Source of the DNA: Yarrowia lipolytica
Taxonomy: Eukaryota; Ascomycota; Dipodascomycetes; Dipodascales
Direction: 5' to 3'
Assembly: GCF_001761485.1 (NCBI RefSeq)
Contig: NC_090775.1
Span: 3,293,001-3,357,000, forward strand
DNA length: 64,000 bases
Of this stretch, positions 41,548 to 41,967 are shown piece by piece; within the stretch, counting starts at the first letter, position 1; each line of letters begins with the position of its first letter. Position numbers and translations under genes: made by a program. Under the pieces are notes generated by a model. It saw only the letters and a program-made list of their open reading frames with translations, ran no database searches and had not been told where the DNA came from.

Positions 41548-41967
41548 ATGGCCCGAACAAAGTCTACAGTTATTGCCCGAAAGGTCACCGGTGGAAAGGC
41601 TCCCCGAAAGCAGATTGGATCCAAGGCTGCCCGAAAGTCCGCTGCTCCTTCCAACACCTCCGGTGGTGTTAAGAAGCCTCACCGATACAAGCCCGGTACC
41701 GTCGCTCTCCGAGAGATTCGACGATACCAGAAGTCCACTGAGCTCCTCATCCGAAAGCTCCCCTTCCAGCGACTTGTCCGAGAGATTGCCCAGGACTTCA
41801 AGACCGATCTCCGATTCCAGTCTTCCGCCATCGGTGCTCTCCAGGAGTCCGTTGAGGCCTACCTTGTCTCCCTCTTTGAGGACACTAACCTGTGTGCTAT
41901 CCACGCCAAGCGAGTCACCATCCAGAAGAAGGATATCCACCTTGCTCGACGACTCCGAGGCGAGTAA
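41548..41967 (+). CDS. histone H3, divergent variant with altered tail
   Basis: A 139-codon H3. The histone fold is almost that of yeast H3 ([20 protein letters not shown] onward), but both ends differ. The tail reads [16 protein letters not shown] instead of ARTKQTARKSTGGK: two residues are inserted before the ARK motif, Gln5 is Ser, and the Ser10 equivalent is Val. A second change, AAPSNTSGG instead of APSTGG, adds three residues after the Lys27/Ser28 equivalents, which are kept. The protein stops at RRLRGE, two residues short of the usual end, and has His in DIHLARR. It is not a CENP-A-like protein, since the loop 1 and alpha-N regions are canonical. Codon bias is strong, so it is probably well expressed. 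Whether the genome also has canonical H3 genes cannot be told here. Confidence 0.95.

Follow-up and report, generated by a model that had tools for sequence, protein, structure and literature searches.

Ser10 of histone H3 is phosphorylated in most eukaryotes at chromosome condensation, and this phosphorylation is used as a marker of mitosis; the purpose that the mark serves is still debated. In Saccharomyces cerevisiae, Aurora B marks S10 and Bmh1 bridges to the deacetylase Hst2, which acts on H4K16 (PMC7948448). The S10A substitution, deletion of hst2 and deletion of the H4 tail are each reported to abolish the anaphase (short-range) compaction signal in this yeast, while normal axial contraction stays intact in S10A cells (PMC4755758). 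The same source describes the S10-Hst2 pathway as mattering when condensin is weak, and reports that the hyper-contraction of an exceptionally long chromosome needed S10 (PMC4755758). Clr4 and HP1 are reported to have been lost in Saccharomycotina after Lipomyces (PMC5499181; PMC7397231).

Here, we analysed a stretch of 64,000 nucleotides of Yarrowia lipolytica DNA (the window) that contains a histone H3 gene with an altered N-terminal tail, and we compared the gene with the rest of the genome and with H3 proteins of related yeasts. Y. lipolytica appears to live without the Ser10 phosphorylation mark.

The histone H3 gene and its altered tail

The encoded protein is a genuine H3 (match to the Pfam Histone model, 155 bits) with a core that is, in the alignment, nearly identical to the solved yeast H3 chains and to other fungal H3s. 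Relative to those chains the tail carries Q5S, a Val-Ile insertion before A7-R8-K9 and S10V; three extra residues lie between S28 and GGVKK, and the last two C-terminal residues are absent, the protein ending in RGE (Table 1). A preliminary description of the locus had listed all of these changes and had stressed that position 10 has no Ser; the alignment bears out each of them, with a GTC-encoded Val at that position. Further substitutions are L20I and A21G, and near the C-terminus a His stands in place of the Gln of close relatives. Thr3, K4, K9, K14, K18, K23, K27, S28 and K36 are kept, with six residues separating K4 from K9 versus four in the canonical tail. The start of the protein does not read ARTKQTARKST with Ser10, and the tail gives a match to the Pfam model PAF (29.2 bits, cut-off 23.4) that is also precomputed for H3s with a canonical tail, e.g., P0012.

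Table 1. Features of the H3-H4 locus, in window coordinates
Feature	Position	Strand	Basis or remark
Gene for canonical histone H4 (103 aa), divergent partner of H3	39865..40176	-	open reading frame; H4 search
CCCTAGCCCTATT motif, AACCCT-box-like	41098..41110	+	motif search
CCCTAACCCTATT motif, AACCCT-box-like	41144..41156	+	motif search
CCCTAACCCTATT motif, AACCCT-box-like	41245..41257	+	motif search
CCCTAGCCCTATT motif, AACCCT-box-like	41268..41280	+	motif search
5'UTR, in-frame translation (12 residues) precedes Met in P0121	41512..41547	+	comparison with P0121
Histone H3 gene, 139 aa, intronless	41548..41967	+	ATG to TAA; only general H3 found in genome
Ser codon, H3 position 5 (canonical Gln)	41563..41565	+	also Ser in P0048, P0049, P0051, P0055, P0073
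Two extra codons (Val-Ile) separating T6 from A7-R8-K9	41569..41574	+	five relatives have one hydrophobic insert; two here only
Val codon (GTC) at Ser10 position	41584..41586	+	alignment
Linker AAPSNTS following S28, with three residues more than the canonical one	41641..41661	+	alignment

Searches of one assembly of Y. lipolytica (20.5 Mb, 6 contigs) returned two places for the H3 protein, its own gene and one encoding a CENP-A-like protein of 150 aa that matches at 58% (C2:1796898), and a single place for the DNA of the H3 gene. A codon pattern for the canonical tail ARTKQTARK had no match anywhere in the assembly. The Pfam Histone model found 13 places, among them the H3 and CENP-A-like genes, a divergent H2A and H2B pair, an H2A.Z-like gene (L004), an NF-YC/HapE-like gene (L005) and H4 or H4-fusion places; the remaining, weak matches were not hit by the H3 protein query. 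The same kind of protein search detected two H4 genes with identical proteins, and because the second of these contains an intron, a further H3 gene interrupted by an intron should likewise have come to light and is unlikely.

Since the searches yield one general H3 and one CENP-A-like gene, the gene in the window is taken as the bulk, replication-type H3 of the organism, and nearly every non-centromeric nucleosome is expected to contain its product. The divergent core and N-terminus of a CENP-A are not seen here, where the core is near-identical to the canonical one, and in these searches the gene coexists with no other general H3, as an H3.3-like or H3V-CTG-like variant would. Instead, it shares with canonical H3 genes the histone fold, the intronless structure, the pairing with H4 and the strong codon bias. 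We therefore regard it as an H3 predicted to act as the canonical one despite its non-canonical tail. The preliminary description had seen in it a specialised variant working beside an ordinary H3. The divergent tail would suit that view, and H3V-CTG of Candida is an example of an H3 variant in an ascomycete (PMC6703697), but the protein, DNA and codon-pattern searches of the genome gave no second general H3, and the comparison of all H3 genes that the description had proposed as a check comes down to this gene and the CENP-A-like one (58%). The gene moreover sits in an H4-H3 divergent pair like the canonical genes of C. albicans, whereas the Candida variant is described as lying outside the clusters (PMC6703697), and we consider a specialised variant very improbable.

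Other H4-like sequences were observed in the same genome. A dispersed gene family (C1:1205387-1205683, L041:1199-3196; C1:597895; C3:2308784; C3:2362760) encodes proteins (665 aa in L041) with a long low-complexity acidic part followed by a C-terminal H4-like domain, 76% identical to H4. Residues 1-560 of the L041 protein matched three clusters among 7998 scored candidates, all from Y. lipolytica, with 100% identity to one entry of this species, and the C3 copies contain internal stops; the family looks like a captured H4 that has spread within this one species. Another H4-like protein, of 84 aa and with a shortened N-tail, is encoded separately about 44 kb from a contig start (C6:43694-43918, L044:3171-3425) and is 61% identical to H4 over residues 28-102.

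The standard H4 gene that the preliminary description had placed next to H3 is its divergent partner. In the 1371-bp spacer between the two genes, the + strand carries four motifs of the form CCCTA[A/G]CCCTATT, whose starts lie 450, 404, 303 and 280 bp upstream of the H3 start codon. These four are the only ones in the whole window even with one mismatch allowed, and shuffled windows held a mean of 0.08 motifs, with 0 of 100 reaching four; the genome has 11 exact motifs, including the four in the spacer. Upstream of the second H4 gene (C3:1596478 onward, L045; identical protein, intron after Met-Ser-Gly), CCCTAACCCTA occurs on the other strand, and TTAGGGTTAGGG is also given for this upstream region. 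Neither the H2A-H2B spacer nor the 1000 bp preceding the CENP-A-like gene contained any of five tested words; because the words are absent from the H2A-H2B spacer, the H3-H4 and H2A-H2B pairs may be under different control. The motifs resemble the AACCCT box of fission yeast, which is bound by Teb1 and Ams2 and serves in the transcription of histone genes in S phase (PMC5128866), and Y. lipolytica has a Teb1 homologue, Tay1 (PMC6746865); by analogy, we infer that a factor may bind the spacer motifs.

The codon usage of the gene is histone-like. With the H4, H2A and H2B genes as reference set, its codon adaptation index (CAI) is 0.838, compared with 0.759 for H4 itself, 0.834 for H2A, 0.850 for H2B, 0.231 for the CENP-A-like gene and 0.199-0.716 for the 19 window open reading frames of at least 250 aa (spurious antisense frames included). 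As a separate observation, the first 42 codons, which make up the remodelled tail, have a CAI of 0.681 versus 0.915 for the rest of the gene. The earlier argument that strong codon bias speaks for a gene in use is upheld by these values and also by P0121, a protein-database entry whose 42 tail residues are identical to those of Y. lipolytica H3. The H3 part of P0121 comprises only the first 89 residues and differs at 48 and 50, and the first two residues of the entry are Met-Gly against Ser-His in the window. We read P0121 as a probable transcript-like copy of the Y. lipolytica H3 gene; its source label, ‘merc’, presumably refers to a marine metatranscriptome catalogue. The genome searches covered a single assembly, which would leave room for an artefact of assembly or sequencing, but P0121 comes from another source and agrees with the window in all 42 tail residues and in the 12 residues translated from the 5'UTR, and the reading frame is intact. 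We have rejected such an artefact in the tail as extremely improbable; since the H3 part of P0121 stops after 89 residues, this entry does not confirm the missing C-terminal residues.

Tail changes across the Dipodascales

Among 13 proteins aligned with Y. lipolytica H3, five (P0048, P0049, P0055, P0051 from Trichomonascus, now Blastobotrys, vanleenenianus, and P0073 from Wickerhamiella sorbophila) combine Q5S and one hydrophobic insert with a retained Ser10. The second insert and S10V occur, among the matches listed, only in Y. lipolytica H3 and P0121, and the H3 of Nadsonia (P0062) has a canonical tail. B. vanleenenianus, W. sorbophila, Geotrichum candidum and Nadsonia all belong to the Dipodascales. 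Because five relatives with Q5S and one insert still have Ser10, Q5S and the first insert probably preceded the second insert and S10V, in a stepwise change within the Dipodascales. The tail called remodelled in the preliminary description is thus really changed, yet in part not unique, as Q5S and one insert are common to other members of the order. Two further H3s in the comparison cannot carry a Lys9 mark: that of G. candidum (P0070), with T6A and K9N (ARTKQAARNSTGG; ARNSTGG), and P0065, with T6A and K9S (ARTKQAARSSTGG; ARSSTGG).

For a wider view, the H3 homologue list took the best 120 among the 7990 candidates sharing most words, and a tail-only search contributed all of its 77 matches; the proteins are clusters at 90% identity, which hide close relatives, any other Yarrowia H3 included. 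Residue 10 could be read in 160 of the 176 listed proteins, those with a parsable tail, and was Ser in 150, Thr in 4, Asn in 3, Ala in 2 and Val in 1 (P0121), in a set picked by similarity that is no fair sample of H3s. Ser10 is not strictly universal, as 10 of the 160 parsable tails in this similarity-picked set lack it.

The insertions could have a function of their own. Aurora/Ipl1 kinases have the consensus [R/K]-x-[S/T]-[I/L/V], and a hydrophobic insert would turn K4-S5-T6-V into such a site, so that the mitotic phosphorylation site would have moved and a phospho/methyl switch would stand beside Lys4 rather than Lys9, leaving Ser10 free to change later. In all 6 of the 6 tails with an insert, T6 is followed by a hydrophobic residue (V, V, V, I, I and M in Y. 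lipolytica H3, P0048, P0049, P0051, P0055 and P0073), and the retention of Ser10 in five of them fits an insert that came first and an S10V that came later. Met, however, is a weak fit to the consensus, and the switch at T6 is a prediction from sequence. The inserts may also stem from one event followed by drift, and for this reason the six tails do not count as six independent cases. We judge a moved phosphorylation site unlikely. Its wider form, in which the phospho-switch of the Dipodascales moved to Thr6 and Yarrowia then lost both Ser10 and Hst2, leaving a free-living eukaryote to pass through mitosis, on chromosomes of 2-4 Mb, with the rewired tail in every general nucleosome, seems to us distinctly improbable.

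A different account holds that the early loss of Clr4 and HP1 in Saccharomycotina relaxed the constraint on the tail, that residues 5-10 then drifted in the Dipodascales without replacement, and that the absence of Hst2 is coincidental. The H3s of Geotrichum (P0070) and P0065 without Lys9 and that of Yarrowia without Ser10 are in line with it. Searches of the Y. lipolytica genome for Pre-SET and chromo-shadow domains gave 0 matches, in agreement with the loss reported in PMC5499181 and PMC7397231, but the control genomes also gave 0, so that these searches do not show absence. Other Saccharomycotina with the same loss retain the canonical tail, e.g., Nadsonia (P0062), and the conservation of Thr3, Lys4, Lys9, Lys14, Lys27, Ser28 and Lys36 in Y. 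lipolytica H3 means that the drift was not general. Relaxed constraint is conceivable as an explanation, though in our view a doubtful one.

Ser10, Hst2 and mitotic compaction

The reading that we favour, and hold to be reasonably probable, is that the tail of the sole general H3 of Y. lipolytica was remodelled stepwise and that Ser10 and Hst2, as one branch, were lost together, with the Thr3 and Lys4/Lys36 systems remaining. The phosphorylatable residue at position 10 is replaced by Val, and a search of the genome for the SIR2 family gave six matches in five genes (L046-L050), 0 of 5 of which were best matched by Hst2 or SIRT2. Among solved structures, L046 was best matched by Sir2 (241.6 bits; Hst2 146.1), L047 by SIRT5 (193.7 bits; SIRT2 75.4), L048 by SIRT1 (78.3 bits; SIRT2 69.3), L049 by Sir2 (68.1 bits; Hst2 37.4) and L050 by an unspecified NAD-dependent deacylase (129.1 bits); Hst2 was absent from the best 60 matches of L048 and L050. 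By eye, L048 and L049 look like Hst3/Hst4 types, and none of the five sirtuins looks Hst2-type, with a narrow margin for L048; NCBIfam models gave no classification of the five. In the table of a 2008 review, 10 of 11 fungi have an HST2-type match and Y. lipolytica is the one without (PMC2442719), and no mention of Hst2 in Yarrowia was found in PMC5068949.

The Thr3 side seems to be in place. The genome encodes a Haspin kinase (269.2 bits) and two BIR domains in one reading frame; Haspin and the BIR protein are linked to Thr3, which is intact in Y. lipolytica H3. Ten SET-domain places were found, and the four that were looked at are a Set1-like protein (N-SET), a Set2-like protein (SRI, WW), an AWS/AT-hook type and a PHD type.

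In the budding yeast path, phosphorylation of H3S10 by Aurora/Ipl1 is followed by binding of the 14-3-3 protein Bmh1 and the sirtuin Hst2, deacetylation of H4K16 and packing of the nucleosomes. In Y. lipolytica, Ser10 would have become dispensable once the Hst2-type effector was gone: we take the pathway that reads Ser10 in budding yeast to be lost because no Hst2-type sirtuin was found, and Ser10 itself could then be lost. Mitosis would rest on condensin and the Thr3 axis, i.e., Haspin, the BIR protein and the retained Thr3. It speaks against this reading that deacetylation of H4K16 could be carried out by Sir2-type or other enzymes with no need of Ser10. We infer the order of the tail changes, the link between the losses of Ser10 and Hst2, and the mode of mitotic compaction; the co-loss itself is one observation in one species. 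As the hyper-contraction of a long chromosome needs S10 in S. cerevisiae and the contigs of Y. lipolytica measure 2.3-4.2 Mb, mitosis without Ser10 is not trivially expected, and it is as puzzling as it is convenient.

With a single general H3 that is naturally devoid of Ser10 and no Hst2-type effector found, this engineerable yeast amounts to a natural experiment in which tails can be swapped in both directions. Y. lipolytica chromatin may also be misread by antibodies made for residues 1-14 of the standard tail (H3K4, K9 and S10 marks). Judged by titles and the starts of abstracts, no treatment of the Yarrowia H3 tail or of natural Ser10 loss was found in the open-licence literature searched. 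Public databases doubtless contain the protein itself, so that only the interpretation of its tail could be new.

Comparison with described H3 proteins

The closest counterparts of Y. lipolytica H3 are the Trichomonascaceae H3s P0051 and P0073, together with P0048, P0049 and P0055, which are 89-94% identical to it and share the ARTKST start and a hydrophobic insert before ARK, but have one inserted residue and keep Ser10 and the C-terminal residues. Canonical Saccharomycotina H3s (the yeast-type chains and Nadsonia P0062) have the same histone fold and the same K4, K9, K14, K27, S28 and K36, and differ in having Q5, no insert, Ser10 and a complete C-terminus. The H3 of G. candidum (P0070), from the same order, is likewise altered within tail residues 6-10, by T6A and K9N instead of an insert and S10V. 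The divergent H3-H4 gene pair is common to C. albicans and Y. lipolytica (PMC6703697). H3V-CTG of C. albicans is, like the H3 described here, an ascomycete H3 that departs from the canonical form, but it coexists with a canonical H3, from which it is reported to differ at 31, 32 and 80 (PMC6703697).
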